From positions 62,001 through 126,000 of the forward strand of contig NZ_VCNP01000054.1 of assembly GCF_006782915.1 (NCBI RefSeq): a stretch of 64,000 nucleotides of DNA. The letters run 5' to 3'. The position numbers and the translations under genes are program-made. This document shows, in pieces, positions 518 through 29,959 of this stretch. Numbering within the stretch: position 1 is the stretch's first letter; every line of letters begins with the position of its first letter. This stretch comes from Streptomyces calvus. GTDB lineage: Bacteria; Actinomycetota; Actinomycetes; Streptomycetales; Streptomycetaceae. A model generated the notes under the pieces. That model was given only the letters and a program-made list of their open reading frames with translations, did not search any database and had not been told where the DNA came from.

Positions 518-540
518 ACCGTACGACCCGCCACTGACAA
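518..540 (-). promoter_or_regulatory. PafBC/RecA-NDp-type DNA-damage promoter of ogt
   Basis: Read on the minus strand: TTGTCAGTG (540-532), 8-nt spacer, TACGGT (523-518), then 7 nt and ATG at 510. This matches tTGTCRgtg-N8-TAnnnT, the LexA-independent damage promoter described for actinobacterial recA, at every conserved position. The 7-nt distance predicts that transcription starts at the A of the ATG. Confidence 0.8.
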
Positions 541-2588: not shown

Positions 2589-2611
2589 TTGTCAGTGGGG
2601 GGTCGTACGGT
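2589..2611 (+). promoter_or_regulatory. PafBC/RecA-NDp-type DNA-damage promoter of uvrB
   Basis: TTGTCAGTG (2589-2597), 8 nt, TACGGT (2606-2611), then 7 nt and ATG at 2619. It is an exact match to tTGTCRgtg-N8-TAnnnT. It overlaps the in-frame TTG at 2589, so that upstream codon cannot be the start. A leaderless transcript from 2619 is predicted. Confidence 0.82.
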
Positions 2612-2618
2612 TGATGAC

Positions 2619-4766
2619 ATGCGGCCCGTTTCCCAGATCGAACGCACGGTGGCGCCCTTCGAGGTCGTCAGCCCCTACCAGCCCAACGGCGACCAGCCCG
2701 CGGCCATCGCCGACCTCGCCCGGCGCATCGAAGCCGGTGAGAAGGACGTCGTCCTGCTCGGCGCGACCGGCACCGGCAAGTCCGCCACCACCGCGTGGAT
2801 GATCGAGAAGCTCCAGCGCCCCACCCTGGTCATGGCGCCGAACAAGACCCTGGCCGCCCAGCTGGCCAACGAGTTCCGCGAGCTGCTGCCGAACAACGCG
2901 GTCGAGTACTTCGTCTCGTACTACGACTACTACCAGCCCGAGGCGTACGTCCCGCAGTCGGACACCTACATCGAGAAGGACTCCTCGATCAACGAGGAGG
3001 TCGAGCGGCTGCGCCACTCCGCGACCAACTCGCTGCTCACCCGCCGCGACGTCGTCGTGGTCGCCTCCGTCTCCTGCATCTACGGCCTGGGCACACCCCA
3101 GGAGTACGTGGACCGCATGGTCCCCCTGCGCGTCGGCGACGAATTCGACCGGGACGAACTGCTGCGCCGCTTCGTGGACATCCAGTACACGCGCAACGAC
3201 ATGGCGTTCAGCCGCGGCACCTTCCGCGTCCGCGGCGACACCATCGAGATCTTCCCGGTCTACGAGGAGCTCGCCGTCCGCATCGAGATGTTCGGCGACG
3301 AGATCGAGGCCCTGTCCACGCTGCACCCGCTCACCGGCGAGATCATCAGCGACGACCAGCAGCTGTACGTCTTCCCGGCCTCCCACTACGTCGCCGGCCC
3401 CGAGCGCCTGGAGCGCGCGGTCAACGACATCGAGAAGGAACTCGGCGAGCGCCTGACCGAGCTGGAGAAGCAGGGCAAGCTGCTGGAGGCCCAGCGCCTG
3501 CGCATGCGCACCACCTACGACATCGAGATGCTCCGCCAGATCGGCTCCTGCTCCGGCGTGGAGAACTACTCGATGCACTTCGACGGCCGCTCGCCCGGCT
3601 CGCCGCCGAACACCCTGCTGGACTACTTCCCGGACGACTTCCTCCTCGTCATCGACGAGTCCCACGTCACCGTCCCGCAGATCGGTGCCATGTACGAGGG
3701 CGACGCCTCCCGCAAGCGCACCCTCGTCGACCACGGCTTCCGTCTCCCCTCCGCCCTCGACAACCGTCCGCTGAAGTGGGAGGAGTTCCAGGAGCGCATC
3801 GGCCAGACCGTGTACCTCTCGGCCACCCCCGGCCAGTACGAGCTCTCCCGCTCGGACGGCGTCGTCGAGCAGATCATCCGCCCCACCGGCCTGGTCGACC
3901 CCGAGGTCGTGGTCAAGCCCACCGAGGGCCAGATCGACGACCTGGTCCACGAGATCCGCTCGCGCGTGGAGAAGGACGAACGCGTCCTGGTCACCACGCT
4001 CACCAAGAAGATGGCCGAGGACCTCACCGACTACTTCCTGGAACTCGGCATCCAGGTCCGCTACCTGCACAGCGACGTCGACACGCTGCGCCGGGTGGAA
4101 CTCCTGCGCGAGCTGCGCAGCGGCGAGTTCGACGTGCTCGTCGGCATCAACCTGCTGCGCGAGGGCCTCGACCTGCCCGAGGTGTCCCTGGTGGCGATCC
4201 TCGACGCCGACAAGGAGGGCTTCCTGCGCTCCGGCACCTCCCTGATCCAGACCATCGGCCGCGCGGCGCGCAACGTCTCCGGCCAGGTCCACATGTACGC
4301 CGACAAGATGACCCCGGCGATGGAGAAGGCCATCGACGAGACCAACCGCCGCCGGGAGAAGCAGATCGCCTACAACCGGGCGAACGGCATCGACCCGCAG
4401 CCGCTGCGCAAGAAGATCAACGACATCGTCGCGCAGATCGCCCGCGAGGACATCGACACCGAGCAGCTGCTCGGCTCCGGCTACCGCAAGGCCAAGAAGG
4501 ACGGCGGCGGCACCAAGGCGCCCGTGCCCGCCCTCGGCAAGGCCGCCAAGGGCGCGAAGAGCACGAAGGGCGCCAAGGGCCGGACCGCCGAGACGGCGCC
4601 GACCGACCGTCCCGCCGCCGAACTCGCCGAACAGATCGAGGAACTGACCGCGCGGATGCGCGCCGCCGCGGCGGACCTCCAGTTCGAGATCGCGGCACGG
4701 CTGCGCGACGAGGTGTCGGAGATGAAGAAGGAACTGCGGCAGATGCAGGAGGCCGGCCTGTCCTGA
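2619..4766 (+). CDS. uvrB: excinuclease ABC subunit B
   Basis: Damage-verifying helicase of nucleotide excision repair. It is loaded by UvrA and recruits UvrC. The 715-residue product shows Walker A GATGTGKS at residues 48-55, the damage-probing beta-hairpin region [17 protein letters not shown] (about 101-117), Walker B LLVIDESH, helicase motifs including YLSATPG and [10 protein letters not shown], and a C-terminal UVR domain that binds UvrC. A basic Ala/Lys/Gly-rich linker (about residues 630-665) precedes the UVR domain. The ATG at 2619 is fixed by the promoter, whose -10 ends 7 nt before it. No Shine-Dalgarno is present, consistent with leaderless translation. Confidence 0.98.
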
Positions 4767-4823
4767 CGGCCCTGCACGCCATGTGTTGCAAGAACGACAC
4801 AAAGTGTGGACCTGGCTACGTCA

Positions 4824-4846
4824 CTGTCAGTGCCGCTGCGTAGGGT
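4824..4846 (+). promoter_or_regulatory. PafBC/RecA-NDp-type promoter upstream of terD
   Basis: CTGTCAGTG (4824-4832), 8-nt spacer, TAGGGT (4841-4846). Only the first, weakly conserved base differs from tTGTCRgtg-N8-TAnnnT. The start codon at 4903 lies about 50 nt beyond the expected transcription start, so this mRNA has a leader with its own ribosome binding site (GAGAGGGGA). It links terD to the same damage response as its uvrB neighbour. Confidence 0.65.
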
Positions 4847-4902
4847 TCTGGTCAACCGCGATTGCGCGGCAACAGGGGACAGTCCGAGAGGGGAATCAGC
4901 AC

Positions 4903-5481
4903 GTGACCGTCAACATGACCAAGGGTCAGGCCATCAGTCTGCAGAAGAACGACGGCGGCAGCCTGACCGCGGTGCGCATGGGTCTCGGCTGGCAGGCGGC
5001 TCCCCGTCGCGGCCTGTTCGGCTCCCGCACCCGGGAGGTCGACCTGGACGCCTCGGCCGTCCTGTTCGCCGACAAGCAGCCCGTCGACGTCGTCTTCTTC
5101 CGCCACCTGGTGAGCGACGACGGCTCCGTGCGCCACACCGGTGACAACCTCGTCGGCGGTGTCGGCCAGGGCGGCGACGACGAGGCCATCCTCGTCGACC
5201 TGTCGCGCGTCCCGGTCCACATCGACCAGATCGTCTTCACCGTGAACTCCTTCACGGGCCAGACCTTCCAGGAGGTGCAGAACGCGTTCTGCCGCCTCGT
5301 CGACGAGACCAACGGCCAGGAGCTCGCCCGCTACACGCTGGCCGGCGGCGGCGCCTACACGGCGCAGATCATGGCCAAGGTGCACCGCTCGGGCTCGGGC
5401 TGGACGATGACGGCCCTCGGCAACCCGGCCAACGGCCGCACCTTCCAGGACCTGATGCCGGCGATCCTGCCGGTCCTCTAG
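4903..5481 (+). CDS. terD: TerD-family stress/tellurium resistance protein
   Basis: Cytoplasmic beta-sandwich protein of the TerD/CABP family, 192 residues. The family binds Ca2+ and takes part in resistance to tellurite, phage and DNA-damaging chemicals; its biochemical role is unsettled. The signature is clear: MTKGQAISLQK at the N-terminus, DLDASAVLFA, FFRHLVSDDGSVRHTGDNLVG, and GGDDEAILVDLSRVP, with acidic calcium-site residues. The GTG at 4903 is chosen because GAGAGGGGA lies 6 nt upstream and family members begin TVNMTKG. It lies between uvrB and a TerD-FtsK fusion gene, under a damage-type promoter. Confidence 0.93.
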   Translation: MTVNMTKGQAISLQKNDGGSLTAVRMGLGWQAAPRRGLFGSRTREVDLDASAVLFADKQPVDVVFFRHLVSDDGSVRHTGDNLVGGVGQGGDDEAILVDLSRVPVHIDQIVFTVNSFTGQTFQEVQNAFCRLVDETNGQELARYTLAGGGAYTAQIMAKVHRSGSGWTMTALGNPANGRTFQDLMPAILPVL

Positions 5482-5491
5482 GCACCCGCAC

Positions 5492-5529
5492 GGCACGCCG
5501 GCCGCCGTCCTGGCGGACCGGCGCGTGCC
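5492..5529 (+). terminator. GC-rich hairpin after terD
   Basis: Imperfect inverted repeat: GGCACGCCGGCCGCC pairs with GGCGGACCGGCGCGTGCC across a 5-nt loop, 11 nt after the terD stop. It has no T-tract, as usual for Streptomyces hairpin terminators. Read-through into the following gene, which starts at 5569, is possible. Confidence 0.5.
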
Positions 5530-5568
5530 ACACGACACAGCACACGCGACATCAGGGGGACGAAGGCG

Positions 5569-7578
5569 ATGACGGCCGAGCTGGTGCGGGGGCAGAACCA
5601 TCCGCTCTCCCAGGCCCGTCTGGAGATCCGGATCTCGGCCGGCACGCCGATCGTGGCCGCGGCCGCACTCGGCGACGAGAACGGCCGGATCCACGGAGTG
5701 GACTGGGTGGCGCATCCCGGCGCCCCCACCCAGCCCGGTCTGGAGGTGTCGCGGCAGGCGGCCGCCGACCACCGCCTCGCGGTGGACCTGGACGCCGTGA
5801 CGGACGCGGTGCACCGCGTCAGCGTGCTGCTCGCCCTGCCCGCCCCCGGCGGCGGCCCCGGGCCCGTCCGTTTCGGCTCCGTGGCGGCCCCCTTCGTCGC
5901 CGTCACCGGCCTGGACGGAAGCGAGGTCGCCACCTACACCATCACGGGTCTGGAGGCCGAGTCGGCCGTCGTCGCGCTGGAGCTCTACCGGCGGCAGGGC
6001 GCCTGGAAGGTCCGCGCCGTCGGCCAGGGCTACGCGGGCGGCCTGGCCGAACTCCTCACCGACCAGGGCCTGCCCGAGGCCGTTCCGCTCGCGGGCAGCA
6101 TCCACGAGGCGGTGGCGAAGGGCCTCGCCCGCTCCGTGCAGGCACCGCCGCCCCGCCAGGCCGACGGCGACCGCTCACGGCAGGCGGCCGCCCCCGCGTT
6201 CGGTCCCGACCAGGGCGGCACGGCACCGCAGGGCTCCCCGGGTCCCGCCCAGCCGCCCTACGGAGGGCAGCAGACCGGCGGACCCGGACAGGACGGACCG
6301 CGGCCGGTGCACGGCGGTACCGGTGCGGTCGATCCGTCCGCGGCCACCGGTGGCGGCCCGGTGAACTACAGCCACCCCCGCCGGCAGACCTCCGCTCCGC
6401 CGCCGCCCCCGCCCGCGGCGCCGCCCGCCCAGCCCGGCCGGCCCGCGCAGCCCGTGGCGGGAGACGCGACCGGCTGGTCCATGGAGGAGCGGCTCTACAA
6501 CCAGGTCTGGGGCATGTTCGAGGACCTGGCCCGCACCACCGCCGCCTACCGGAGCGCCGTCGACTTCGCCGAGTCGCGCCTGGACAAGGAGCTCGAGCAG
6601 GCCCTGTCCGACCCGCGCAGCCGGATCGGCGGCCAGGGCGACGCCGCACGCGAGGCGGCCCGGGCACGGCAGGCCCAGCTCGTCGGCCAGGCGCGGGAGG
6701 CCCTCGACCGGGACCTCGCGCAGCTCGTCGCCGAGGCCGAGGTCGTCGAGCCCGCACTGCCTCCGGCGTTCGCCCGCTGGGACAACCCCGCCTGGCACGC
6801 CTACCGGGTGCCGATGGAGATACCCATGGCGCTGCGCCTGGGTGACCTCCGCCTTCCCGAGGCGGAGCGGATCCGCATTCCGATGCTGCTCCGGCTGCCG
6901 CTGGAGCGGGGGCTGTGGATCGACAGCGGACGGACCGAATCCTTCGACGGCACGTTCACCGACGCGCACGACATGCGGCGTCTCGCCATGGAGACGGCGG
7001 TGGCGCACGCGGCCCGGCTGCTCGCCGTGTACCCGGCGGGCGAGTTCACGGTCCACGTCATCGACCCCGCCGGCTCCGGTGCGCAGGCCCTGGCGCCGCT
7101 GACGCAGACCGGGGTGCTGGCCGCTCCGCCCGCACAGGGCGCCGCGGGAGTGACGGACGTCCTGGGCCGGCTCACCCAGCGGGTCGACCTGGTGCAGATG
7201 GCGCTGCGCGGCGGCGCACCGGACGCGCTGCCCCCCGGCCTCGACACCTCCCAGCAGCTGCTGATCGTCAACGACTTCCCGCACGGCTTCGACGACCGGG
7301 CCGTGAACCAGCTGCGGTACCTCGCCGACGAGGGCCCGTCCGTCGGCGTGCATCTGATGATGGTCGCCGACCGCCAGGAGTCCGCCGGGTACGGCCCGCT
7401 CCTCGACCCGCTGTGGCGTTCGCTGCTGCGGCTCACCGCGGTGCCCGACGACCATCTGGCCGACCCGTGGGTCGGGCACGCCTGGACCTACGAGCCACCG
7501 GTGGTGCCGCCGGGCAGCCAGGTGCTCCACCAGGTGCTCACCCAGGTGGCGGCGGCCCGTCGCGCCTGGAACCGGTGA
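5569..7578 (+). CDS. TerD-like domain fused to a degenerate FtsK/HerA-like ATPase domain
   Basis: 669-residue cytoplasmic protein. Residues 1-180 form a divergent TerD domain (SQARLEIRIS, GVDWVAHPGAP, VTGLDGSEVATYTITGLEAE, VRAVGQGYAGGL). Residues about 185-300 are a disordered Pro/Gln/Gly linker. From about 303 comes a helical segment (WGMFEDLARTTAAYRSAVDF) and a domain resembling FtsK/HerA-type NTPases: LRLPLERGLWIDS where the P-loop would sit, and QQLLIVNDFPHGFD as a Walker-B-like strand, followed by GVHLMMVADRQE. I see no GxxGxGK[ST], so ATP hydrolysis is doubtful. Such architectures are known from Ter-linked stress systems. The function is unknown; a scaffold or sensor role near TerD is an inference. 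ATG with GGGGGACG upstream. Confidence 0.8.
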   Translation: MTAELVRGQNHPLSQARLEIRISAGTPIVAAAALGDENGRIHGVDWVAHPGAPTQPGLEVSRQAAADHRLAVDLDAVTDAVHRVSVLLALPAPGGGPGPVRFGSVAAPFVAVTGLDGSEVATYTITGLEAESAVVALELYRRQGAWKVRAVGQGYAGGLAELLTDQGLPEAVPLAGSIHEAVAKGLARSVQAPPPRQADGDRSRQAAAPAFGPDQGGTAPQGSPGPAQPPYGGQQTGGPGQDGPRPVHGGTGAVDPSAATGGGPVNYSHPRRQTSAPPPPPPAAPPAQPGRPAQPVAGDATGWSMEERLYNQVWGMFEDLARTTAAYRSAVDFAESRLDKELEQALSDPRSRIGGQGDAAREAARARQAQLVGQAREALDRDLAQLVAEAEVVEPALPPAFARWDNPAWHAYRVPMEIPMALRLGDLRLPEAERIRIPMLLRLPLERGLWIDSGRTESFDGTFTDAHDMRRLAMETAVAHAARLLAVYPAGEFTVHVIDPAGSGAQALAPLTQTGVLAAPPAQGAAGVTDVLGRLTQRVDLVQMALRGGAPDALPPGLDTSQQLLIVNDFPHGFDDRAVNQLRYLADEGPSVGVHLMMVADRQESAGYGPLLDPLWRSLLRLTAVPDDHLADPWVGHAWTYEPPVVPPGSQVLHQVLTQVAAARRAWNR

Positions 7579-7605
7579 CCGCCCCACACCCTTGACCAAG
7601 CCTCG

Positions 7606-7632
7606 GTAAAGCCCCGCGACCTGGGGCTTTAC
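7606..7632 (+). terminator. intrinsic terminator
   Basis: Perfect 10-bp inverted repeat GTAAAGCCCC / GGGGCTTTAC with a 7-nt loop, followed by TGGTTTCTTT. It ends the terD/TerD-FtsK transcripts and insulates the terC leader. Confidence 0.85.
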
Positions 7633-7682
7633 TGGTTTCTTTACCTCTCTCTTTACCAATCCTTGGTGATTGAGGTATTGTC

Positions 7683-7835
7683 GACCGCACGGAGGGGAGT
7701 ACTCCCTGTCTGTGCGGCGACCCCGTCAATACGGATCAGGCCAGATCCCGGGGCGTCGGCCCGAAGGACCGTCCGGACGCAGTCGAGCGCCGGAGGCCCG
7801 GGTGGAAGAGACCTCCGGCAGCGACGACGCTGACA
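7683..7835 (+). promoter_or_regulatory. probable yybP-ykoY manganese riboswitch in the terC leader
   Basis: The leader contains the hallmark GGAGGGGAGTACTCCC at 7690-7705, enclosed by the helix CCGCAC (7684-7689) / GTGCGG. Further helices follow, including GCCGGAGG / CCTCCGGC near 7787-7820. The yybP-ykoY class is a Mn2+ sensor that commonly precedes terC and other manganese exporters. Assignment rests on the GGGGAGTA motif, the stem order and the downstream gene. I could not run a covariance model and the exact 3' boundary is approximate. Confidence 0.65.
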
Positions 7836-7866
7836 TTTGCCGTGTGACGTATCTGCCGGAGGCGCA

Positions 7867-8868
7867 GTGGATGTTTCCCCGACCCTATGGGTCCTGACGA
7901 TCGTGGGCCTGTGTGCCCTTATCGCCATCGACTTCTTCATCGGCCGCAAGCCGCATGACGTGTCCATCAAGGAAGCGGGGATCTGGACAGGCGTCTGGAT
8001 CGCCCTGGCCGCGCTCTTCGGGCTCGGCCTGCTGCTCTTCGGTGGCGGTCAGCCCGCGGGCGAGTTCTTCGCCGGCTTCATCACCGAGAAGTCGCTGAGC
8101 GTCGACAACCTCTTCGTCTTCGTCCTGATCATGGCGAAGTTCGCGGTGCCGTCCCAGTACCAGCAGCGGGTGCTCCTCGTGGGTGTCCTCATAGCGCTGG
8201 TGCTCCGCGCGATCTTCATCGCCGCGGGCGCGGCGATCATCGCCAGCTTCTCCTGGGTGTTCTACATCTTCGGCGCCTTCCTGATCTGGACCGCCTGGAA
8301 GCTCATCCAGGAGGCCCGGGCCGAGGAGCAGGACGAGGAGTACGAGGAGAACAAGCTGCTCAAGGCCGCCGAGCGCCGCTTCGGTGTGGCCGACCGGTAC
8401 CACGGCACCAAGCTGTGGATCGAGCAGAACGGCAAGCGGGTCATGACCCCGATGCTCGTCGTCATGCTCGCCATCGGCACCACGGACGTCCTGTTCGCGC
8501 TCGACTCGATCCCCGCGATCTTCGGTCTGACGCAGGACCCGTACATCGTGTTCACCGCGAACGCGTTCGCCCTGATGGGTCTGCGGCAGCTGTACTTCCT
8601 CATCGGCGGCCTGCTGAAGAAGCTGGTCCACCTCTCCTACGGCCTGTCGATCATCCTCGGCTTCATCGGGGTCAAGCTGGTGCTGCACGCGCTGCACGAG
8701 TCCGGGGTGCACGTCCCGGAGATCAGCATCCCCGTCTCGCTGGGCGTGATCTGCTCGGTCCTGATCGTCACCACGATCACCAGCCTCCGGGCCTCCCGCA
8801 AGCAGGCGGAGGCCGAGGCGGCCGCAGGCCGGGGCGACGGCACCATGAAGGACAACATCGACGTCTGA
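7867..8868 (+). CDS. terC: TerC-family integral membrane protein (probable Mn2+ exporter)
   Basis: 333-residue membrane protein with about nine hydrophobic helices. Family motifs are present: TEKSLSVDNLFVFVLIM near residues 77-93 and GTTDVLFALDSIPAIFGLT near 210-228. The acidic residues in these motifs are the expected metal ligands. TerC proteins export manganese, often to protect or metallate extracytoplasmic proteins, and are historically tied to tellurite resistance. The GTG at 7867 was chosen for GCCGGAGG just upstream; the protein then starts directly before helix 1. The manganese-type riboswitch ahead supports the substrate. The cytoplasmic loop EEQDEEYEENK is strongly acidic. A hairpin terminator follows. 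Confidence 0.9.
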   Translation: MDVSPTLWVLTIVGLCALIAIDFFIGRKPHDVSIKEAGIWTGVWIALAALFGLGLLLFGGGQPAGEFFAGFITEKSLSVDNLFVFVLIMAKFAVPSQYQQRVLLVGVLIALVLRAIFIAAGAAIIASFSWVFYIFGAFLIWTAWKLIQEARAEEQDEEYEENKLLKAAERRFGVADRYHGTKLWIEQNGKRVMTPMLVVMLAIGTTDVLFALDSIPAIFGLTQDPYIVFTANAFALMGLRQLYFLIGGLLKKLVHLSYGLSIILGFIGVKLVLHALHESGVHVPEISIPVSLGVICSVLIVTTITSLRASRKQAEAEAAAGRGDGTMKDNIDV

Positions 8869-8893
8869 CCCCGTCGGACACCGGGGACACCCG

Positions 8894-8938
8894 CACCGGG
8901 AGCGGAGGACAGCACCTTGCCTGCCACCGCTCCCGGTG
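8894..8938 (+). terminator. hairpin after terC
   Basis: Perfect 12-bp inverted repeat CACCGGGAGCGG (8894-8905) / CCGCTCCCGGTG (8927-8938) with a 21-nt loop, 26 bp after the terC stop. From here to 9154 no supported gene is seen. An in-frame ATG at 9002 with GAGGAG upstream would extend the next protein by 51 residues of unconvincing composition. Confidence 0.6.
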
Positions 8939-9154
8939 TCTGTCTGTCTCCACTCGCGCCGCCCGCCGGCGCCGACCGAATTCGACTCGTACGAGGAGGC
9001 CATGCGTGACCTTGATGACCCCGAGACGATCAGTGCGGTGGAACGGAGGGAAACATCGGCCGGCGGTTCCTTCCGCCGTGACCACGGCGCCCTGCCGACG
9101 GGCGGAGGACACCAGCGGGGTGCGACCCCCCTTCACGTCTGCGACGATCGCCCC

Positions 9155-10252
9155 ATGACCGCTCGGTTCAGGTCACTCGCGCAGTGGACGACCCTGGTAC
9201 CGGTGTTCGCCGTAGTCCTGCTGGTGCTGACCTGGGGGCGGGACCTGCCCGGCTGGATCGTCGCGGTGGTCACCCTGGTCCTCGCCGGGGCCGTGCTGGC
9301 GGCCGTCCACCACGCCGAGGTCGTCGCCCACCGGGTCGGCGAGCCCTTCGGCTCACTGGTCCTCGCGGTCGCCGTCACCGTCATCGAGGTGGCGCTGATC
9401 GTCACACTGATGATCGACGGTGGGGACAAGAGCGCGACCCTCGCCAGGGACACCGTCTTCGCGGCCGTGATGATCACCTGCAACGGCATCGTCGGACTGA
9501 GCCTGCTGGTCGGCTCCCTGCGTCACGGCACGGCGGTGTTCAACTCCGAGGGCACCGGCGCGGCCCTCTCCACGGTGGCGACCCTGGCGACCCTCAGTCT
9601 GGTGCTGCCGACGTTCACCACGAGCAAGCCGGGCCCGGAGTTCTCCACCGTCCAGCTCACGTTCGCGGCCGTGTCCTCGCTGATCCTCTACGGCTTGTTC
9701 GTCGCGACCCAGACCGTGCGACATCGCGACTACTTCCTGCCGATAACCAAGCAGGGCGCGCCGGCCGCACCGGACGAGCACGCCGAGGCGCCCTCCACAC
9801 GCACCGCCCTGATCAGCCTGGGGCTGCTGGGCCTGGCCCTGATCGGAGTGGTGGGCCTGGCCAAAGGCGTCTCGCCGACCATCGAGTCCGGAGTCGACGC
9901 GGCCGGCCTGCCCCACTCCGTCGTCGGTGTGATCATCGCGTTGCTGGTCCTCCTCCCGGAGACCATCGCCGCGACACGCGCCGCGCGCCGCAACCAGGTG
10001 CAGACCAGCATGAACCTCGCGCTCGGCTCGGCGATGGCCAGCATCGGCCTGACCATCCCCGCCGTCGCGCTGGCCTCCCTCTGGCTGCCCGGCCCGCTCG
10101 TCCTCGGCCTCGGCAACACCCACATGGTGCTGCTCGCCCTGACCGTCGTGGTCGGCGCGCTGACCGTGGTGCCCGGACGGGCCACACCGCTCCAGGGCGG
10201 AGTGCACCTGGTGCTGCTCGCCGCCTATCTGGAGCTGGCGATCAACCCGTAG
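9155..10252 (+). CDS. Ca2+/H+ antiporter of the CAX/ChaA family
   Basis: 365-residue membrane protein that exchanges cytosolic Ca2+ (or Na+/K+ in ChaA) for protons. About eleven hydrophobic helices are visible. The two inverted alpha-repeats carry the family acidic motifs: [17 protein letters not shown], followed by [15 protein letters not shown], in the first half, and [24 protein letters not shown], followed by [20 protein letters not shown], in the second. The ATG at 9155 places the first helix at residue 13; a start at 9002 is the alternative. With TerC and the calcium-binding TerD nearby, the block looks concerned with divalent cations. Confidence 0.9.
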
Positions 10253-13672: not shown

Positions 13673-13695
13673 TTGTCAGTGGCTCCCCCTAGTCT
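13673..13695 (+). promoter_or_regulatory. PafBC/RecA-NDp-type DNA-damage promoter of uvrA
   Basis: TTGTCAGTG (13673-13681), 8 nt, TAGTCT (13690-13695). It matches tTGTCRgtg-N8-TAnnnT exactly. The transcript would start near 13702, leaving a leader of about 50 nt with AAGAAAGG before the GTG at 13752. Confidence 0.82.
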
Positions 13696-21602: not shown

Positions 21603-21625
21603 GTGTCGGTGCCCGCCAGTAGGGT
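21603..21625 (+). promoter_or_regulatory. PafBC/RecA-NDp-type DNA-damage promoter of uvrC
   Basis: GTGTCGGTG (21603-21611), 8 nt, TAGGGT (21620-21625), then 7 nt and ATG at 21633. Only the weak first base deviates from tTGTCRgtg-N8-TAnnnT. A leaderless transcript is predicted that continues through rapZ, yvcK and whiA. Confidence 0.78.
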
Positions 21626-29924: not shown

Positions 29925-29959
29925 GGCGGTCCGCACCCTACCGACGGGTACGGACCGCC
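29925..29959 (+). terminator. hairpin terminator after the M14 peptidase
   Basis: GGCGGTCCG (29925-29933) pairs with CGGACCGCC (29951-29959), with an inner ACCC/GGGT helix in the loop. It lies between the peptidase and the gap promoter region. Confidence 0.65.

Follow-up and report, generated by a model that had tools for sequence, protein, structure and literature searches.

A RecA-NDp/PafBC-type box upstream of terD in Streptomyces calvus, possibly added to an older promoter within one Streptomyces lineage

Background

In Streptomyces calvus the gene terD follows the excision-repair gene uvrB after a gap of 136 nt, and the locus raises the question of what triggers a ter gene in an actinomycete, and whether DNA damage is that trigger. 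An earlier note on this DNA, a stretch of 64,000 nt called the window here, had claimed that terD carries the same PafBC-type damage promoter as uvrB. A RecA-NDp promoter consists of a TTGTCRGTG-like -26 box, an 8-nt spacer and a TANNNT -10, and the operator consensus of LexA is the palindrome TCGAAC-N4-GTTCGA. In a passage of PMC5087735 the RecA-NDp sequence is aligned for S. coelicolor recA, for SCO6735 and for orthologues of SCO6735, and SCO6735 is given as 5-fold up after UV. According to a section of PMC8223512, RecA-NDp is also found in other Actinobacteria and is closely similar to the PafBC consensus.

For ter genes a comparison comes from E. coli. An excerpt of PMC8123226 reports about 5-fold higher UVC resistance in E. 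coli carrying a minimal ter operon and, as far as that excerpt goes, this makes a damage wiring of terD plausible. The terBCDE genes of E. coli resemble the present case in having a TerD-family protein and, in the same excerpt, a link of ter to UV survival, but the gene set and the host differ. A literature search gave no paper containing both words PafBC and TerD.

Results

The string CTGTCAGTG-N8-TAGGGT is present exactly as claimed at 4824-4846 of the plus strand, with TAGGGT at 4841-4846. The motif ends 56 nt from the terD GTG (4903) and 39 nt from the ribosome-binding site (4886-4893), the latter distance being slightly off the figure of about 50 nt given previously. Features of the region are collected in Table 1.

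Table 1. Positions of terD promoter features, neighbouring genes and related motifs in the window
Feature	Position	Strand	Basis
RecA-NDp motif before ogt	518..540	-	23-mer search, Pfam
uvrB RecA-NDp promoter TTGTCAGTG-N8-TACGGT, 7 nt 5' of ATG (2619)	2589..2611	+	
uvrB	2619..4766	+	Pfam UvrB domains
Dyad GTGTTG-N6-CGACAC in -61 element	4783-4800	+	
Conserved element TGTTGCAAGAACGACACAAA near -61	4784..4803	+	near-tree changes, fixed spacing, 0 or 1 copy per genome
-26 box CTGTCAGTG, RecA-NDp/PafBC type	4824..4832	+	motif search, weight matrix, near relatives
Extended -10 TGCGTAGGGT (TAGGGT 4841-4846)	4837..4846	+	column conservation in near loci; other genera
Predicted transcription start, 7-8 nt past -10	4853..4854	+	inferred from -10
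Leader hairpin CCGCG-ATTG-CGCGG	4856..4869	+	near-tree changes, fold
Ribosome-binding site GAGAGGGG	4886..4893	+	conserved in near loci
terD, 192 aa, TerD domain	4903..5481	+	Pfam PF02342 E 2.1e-42
Second TerD-domain gene	5569..7578	+	Pfam
Terminator-like hairpin 3' of second TerD gene	7603..7635	+	terminator scan
RecA-NDp motif before uvrA	13673..13695	+	23-mer search

The 23-mer of the terD site, with up to three mismatches, has 6 matches in the window against 0.97 expected, and none of 100 shuffles reached 6. Three of the other copies lie before ogt, uvrB and uvrA. Further matches in the window, with two and three mismatches, are at 21603-21625 (+) and 29935-29957 (-). In a weight matrix built from the 17 sites that precede repair genes in the same genome, the terD site scores 23.5; the 17 sites, each left out in turn, score 20.3-27.0. 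This lower limit was reached by 6 of 4000 background stretches of 130 nt, and true sites may be among the 6. The terD site is beyond chance. Its sequence puts it among the RecA-NDp/PafBC-type promoters, of which recA and SCO6735 are known Streptomyces examples.

Other promoter and operator types were also looked for. A scan for sigma-70-type promoters gave no site in 4700-7900, its E. coli consensus making it a weak test for this host; by eye, the hexamer 17 nt 5' of TAGGGT (ACGTCA) agrees with TTGACA at 3 of 6 positions. The site is in this respect like a RecA-NDp promoter, a type that lacks a good housekeeping -35. A LexA (SOS) site at terD was rejected, since the operator palindrome has no match with up to three mismatches from 4688 to 9194. 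The nearest LexA-like match, with three mismatches, is at 4672-4687 within uvrB, and in the whole window 47 matches of this quality were counted where 26 are expected.

The 8.0-Mb genome has 38 copies of the strict motif, YTGTCRGTG-N8-TANNNT, and none of its reversed pattern; with one mismatch allowed there are at least 152 matches against 8 reversed. The first letter of the strict motif is C in 14 of the 38 sites, that of terD included. The genes behind the sites were picked by a script as the nearest long open reading frame with high third-position GC, taken from its first possible start (two were picked by hand), so some gene calls or starts may be wrong. By Pfam, clear repair or replication genes follow 17 of the 38 sites: recA, two UvrD-type helicases, xseA, recQ, dnaX, an AlkZ-like glycosylase, ogt, uvrB, uvrA, an exonuclease with a BRCT domain, a RecD2 HHH-domain protein, a PD-(D/E)XK nuclease, a DEAD-box helicase, ruvC, an MgsA/RarA-type ATPase and a uracil-DNA glycosylase. 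In this genome the motif is a marker of a DNA-repair regulon. The remaining 21 sites include those of terD, FolB, MurB, a sigma factor, SWIM, WGR, YjbR, SUKH-4 and MFS, with seven genes giving no Pfam hit; the sigma factor, SWIM, FolB, WGR, SUKH-4 and MFS genes are non-repair genes behind a strict motif (L006, L007, L012, L013, L018 and L019). At 20 of the 38 sites, with starts as picked by the script, 5-10 nt separate the -10 from the first possible start codon, which suggests that damage-response mRNAs are leaderless at such sites. The genome also has an adjacent pair of WYL-WCX genes, the second of which encodes the PafC HTH domain, i.e. a pafB-pafC pair in which the name pafB is given by adjacency.

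Strong enrichment of the motif was found in all 41 sampled Streptomyces genomes, which have 22-59 sites each and 1582 in total, against 15 reversed and at most 2 reversed in any genome. This sits badly with a remark in one passage of a 2022 paper (PMC9380542), where an initial search suggested a lack of conservation of the M. smegmatis PafBC motif in S. venezuelae; the 41 genomes may or may not include that species.

Conservation in near relatives was followed in the 80 loci that are best by TerD protein among the matches listed. In 53 of these best 80 listed the strict motif lies within 160 nt upstream of terD, and 27 are without it. Six of them do not have the full stretch upstream of uvrB and were excluded from the paired count. 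Of the remaining 74 of the best 80 listed, 70 carry the strict box at uvrB and 51 carry it at terD, with 20 loci having it at uvrB only and one at terD only; the four without a strict uvrB motif deviate solely in its first letter. The strict state at terD takes at least 16 changes on the tree of these near loci (81 sequences). Within the terD box, read as GTCnGnG, the letters G, T, C, G and G change 2, 3, 0, 0 and 2 times, and T4825 and T4831 change 11 and 12 times, much as the flanks do. On the same tree the first letter of the uvrB box changes 4 times and its A/G position 3 times. Zero changes elsewhere in the uvrB box are partly so by construction, because the pattern used to select these boxes holds TGTC, GTG, TA and the last T constant; 79 of the best 80 listed loci match it.

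With the window included, the box is kept at terD in 54 of the 81 tips of the near tree. Neutral decay was simulated from a root carrying the motif, with base frequencies and transition bias guessed and 120 runs for each setting. At scales 2 and 3, where changes per site match those of the flanks, the mean retention was 12 tips (maximum 38) and 6 tips (maximum 23), respectively. The observed 54 tips were reached in 48% of the runs at scale 0.5, 5% at scale 1 and 0% at 1.5, so that under slower neutral rates drift could account for the retention. If flank rates are the right yardstick, the excess of 54 tips over the neutral means suggests that the terD box is partly maintained in the near clade, and less strictly than that of uvrB.

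The wider distribution was taken from 79 upstream stretches that we selected from the TerD search hits. In 70 of the 79, covering 15 genus labels, the C-terminus of UvrB is encoded no more than 600 nt upstream of terD. Six of the other nine are second TerD copies within a genome and three come from other families; none of the nine has the motif. Among the 70 uvrB-linked loci the strict terD motif is found in 6 of 27 from Streptomyces and 0 of 43 from other genera, and a relaxed pattern adds four Streptomyces loci and one from another genus. The relaxed pattern allowed spacers of 7-9 nt, and all five additions have N8, the spacing whose conservation in related species the earlier note had named as a check. 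Matrix scores within the repair range were obtained at terD in 7 of the 27 Streptomyces loci and in 0 of the 43 others.

The regions upstream of uvrB were fetched for 40 of these 70 loci, and here the box was counted with any first letter. All 27 spread Streptomyces genomes have it at uvrB, and 8 of them have it at terD; of the 13 genomes from other genera, 8 have it at uvrB and none at terD, the five without it at uvrB being scored in the stretch taken, where a position miss is possible. The terD box does not have the conservation at orthologous promoters that the uvrB box has, and the motif before terD, which the earlier note had proposed to look for in other Streptomyces, was not found in most of the spread Streptomyces genomes. 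This lowers the standing of terD as a core member of the regulon, and does not bear on whether the site works in this way here. The two promoters are the same in motif type. In evolutionary terms they are not, because the terD box is not conserved across the genus.

The sequence around the box contains other conserved parts. Changes per site on the near tree are 0.5 in the block 4783-4803 and 1.5 in the -10, against 7.5 in the stretch 4804-4823. With up to four mismatches, the upstream element TGTTGCARGAMCGMCACAAA is present in 25 of the 28 rows from Streptomyces and in 9 of the 43 from other genera, and none of 2000 single-base shuffles came to four, the consensus having been derived from the same Streptomyces rows in which it was counted. 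Its distance to the -10 is 31-33 nt in all 30 rows that have both (of 34 with the element). A looser exact pattern has one match in 27 of the 41 Streptomyces genomes and two in none, and the reversed pattern gave 13 hits in this genus search, all in two genomes (6 in G009 and 7 in G338). A regulon of the element within the genome itself was rejected, the terD copy with 0 mismatches and two copies with 3 mismatches giving three sites against seven reversed. If transcription starts 7-8 nt past the -10, the centre of the dyad would be near -61. This is a common position for an activator.

Two other readings of the element are unlikely. As an RNA hairpin it would have its fourth pair broken in 14 of 113 elements, those with CGCCAC (11) or TGCCAC (3) as right arm, and none of these has a compensating left arm. 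One variant of the 113, GTGTCG/CGATAC, retains its pairs; pairing is little tested overall because the same arms occur in 97 of the 113, and the fold of the element alone is no better than that of shuffles (z -1.11). A coding sequence is unlikely because the distance to the -10 can be 31, 32 or 33 nt, and no reading frame across the element would survive this. In the leader, the 5' arm of the hairpin has 0.8 changes per site on the near tree and its loop 8-21, the arms being conserved and the loop variable; the fold of the whole leader is no better than shuffles (z -0.84). An Rfam RNA was rejected, with no match up to E 1 in 4700-5000. After the leader hairpin (4856-4869), which lies where the terD leader is predicted to begin, there is a conserved CAACAGGGGA. 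The earlier note made no mention of these older parts of the terD promoter, nor of possible read-through from uvrB.

In the second TerD gene the TerD domain covers residues 33-164 of 669 and is the sole Pfam domain; of its earlier description as TerD-FtsK the first half is confirmed, and Pfam gives no FtsK domain. A scan of 4700-7900, by which terminators without a T tail are missed, gave no plus-strand terminator-like site between uvrB and the hairpin at 7603-7635, so transcripts from uvrB may run on through terD into the second TerD gene. Stretches with five or more T in 8 nt are present upstream of terD in only 9 of the best 80 near loci listed and 17 of the 70 far loci.

In S. coelicolor, SCO1966 is excinuclease ABC subunit B (PMC3897704), and SCO1965 is likely to be its terD, judging by the adjoining gene number and the label. 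The strict box is present at a locus titled S. violaceoruber NRRL S-981 (L095). SCO1965 is called an export associated protein in a passage of one proteome study (PMC3293853) and counted among tellurium resistance proteins in a passage of another (PMC7244524), both studies not being on DNA damage. Within what those passages report, detection of the protein indicates that basal expression exists and does not require damage.

Discussion

The explanation that we favour, with some reservation, is a composite terD promoter, in which a PafBC box has been added to an older promoter in one Streptomyces lineage. The older part would be the -61 element with the extended -10, common to most of the Streptomyces examined and to some other genera of Streptomycetaceae, and it probably gives basal expression of terD. 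Judging by its distribution, the RecA-NDp/PafBC box at -26 would have been gained within one Streptomyces lineage. On the mechanism described for mycobacteria (PMC11804915), PafBC activated by single-stranded DNA after damage would join RNA polymerase and the housekeeping sigma factor at the box and raise terD, with read-through extending the response to the second TerD gene. A tentative elaboration, for which we see perhaps one chance in three, joins the lineage-gained PafBC box at -26 to a second input, a dedicated activator that would have the -61 element as its only target in the genome. If that were true, an old ter stress gene would have been coupled to DNA damage within Streptomyces.

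The proposal of a PafBC-type promoter at terD thus keeps the motif, its N8 spacer and -10, the regulon context, the pafBC pair and the retention in the near clade, and loses genus-wide conservation. Participation of terD in the damage response is likely in this species and many near relatives; for the genus or the family as a whole it lacks support. Like recA, uvrA and uvrB in the same genome, terD has the -26 box, the N8 spacer and a TANNNT -10. It differs from the known RecA-NDp/PafBC regulon in a box that begins with C, a feature of a minority of the strict sites, in a 56-nt leader where many other sites have a start codon almost directly after the -10, and in a box that is limited to a clade and sits on a second conserved promoter architecture.

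It is conceivable, though we think it rather unlikely, that any damage response of terD comes mainly by read-through from the strongly conserved uvrB promoter, with the terD box as a minor or decaying extra. The persistent linkage of the two genes, the box at uvrB in every Streptomyces genome of the spread sample, the small share of loci with T-rich stretches upstream of terD and the interval free of plus-strand terminator-like sites in the window all fit such an arrangement, but the terminator scan is blind to sites without a T tail, the 136-nt gap has conserved promoter parts and a leader of its own, and the terD box is retained in the near clade beyond the neutral means at flank-matched rates. 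That retention likewise counts against a non-functional -26 match, with the old promoter of -61 element and extended -10 under another regulator and damage playing no part. Absence of the box from most of the family sample, while most Streptomyces and some other genera retain the -61 element and the -10, and the uneven constraint within the box would agree with it, but the terD matrix score is typical of repair genes and background stretches hardly ever reach that range, and we consider this reading improbable. The composite promoter, if real, supplies an actinomycete ter gene with a trigger that can be tested. It is also a clean example of a regulon that gained a member inside a single genus, for which the adjoining conserved uvrB box serves as the control.

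A different arrangement is seen in four loci of genus label g7 (L152, L156, L158 and L161), which share another block upstream of terD, GAACCGGGAT...GCGTCTTGTTAGGGT, possibly a promoter of another type.
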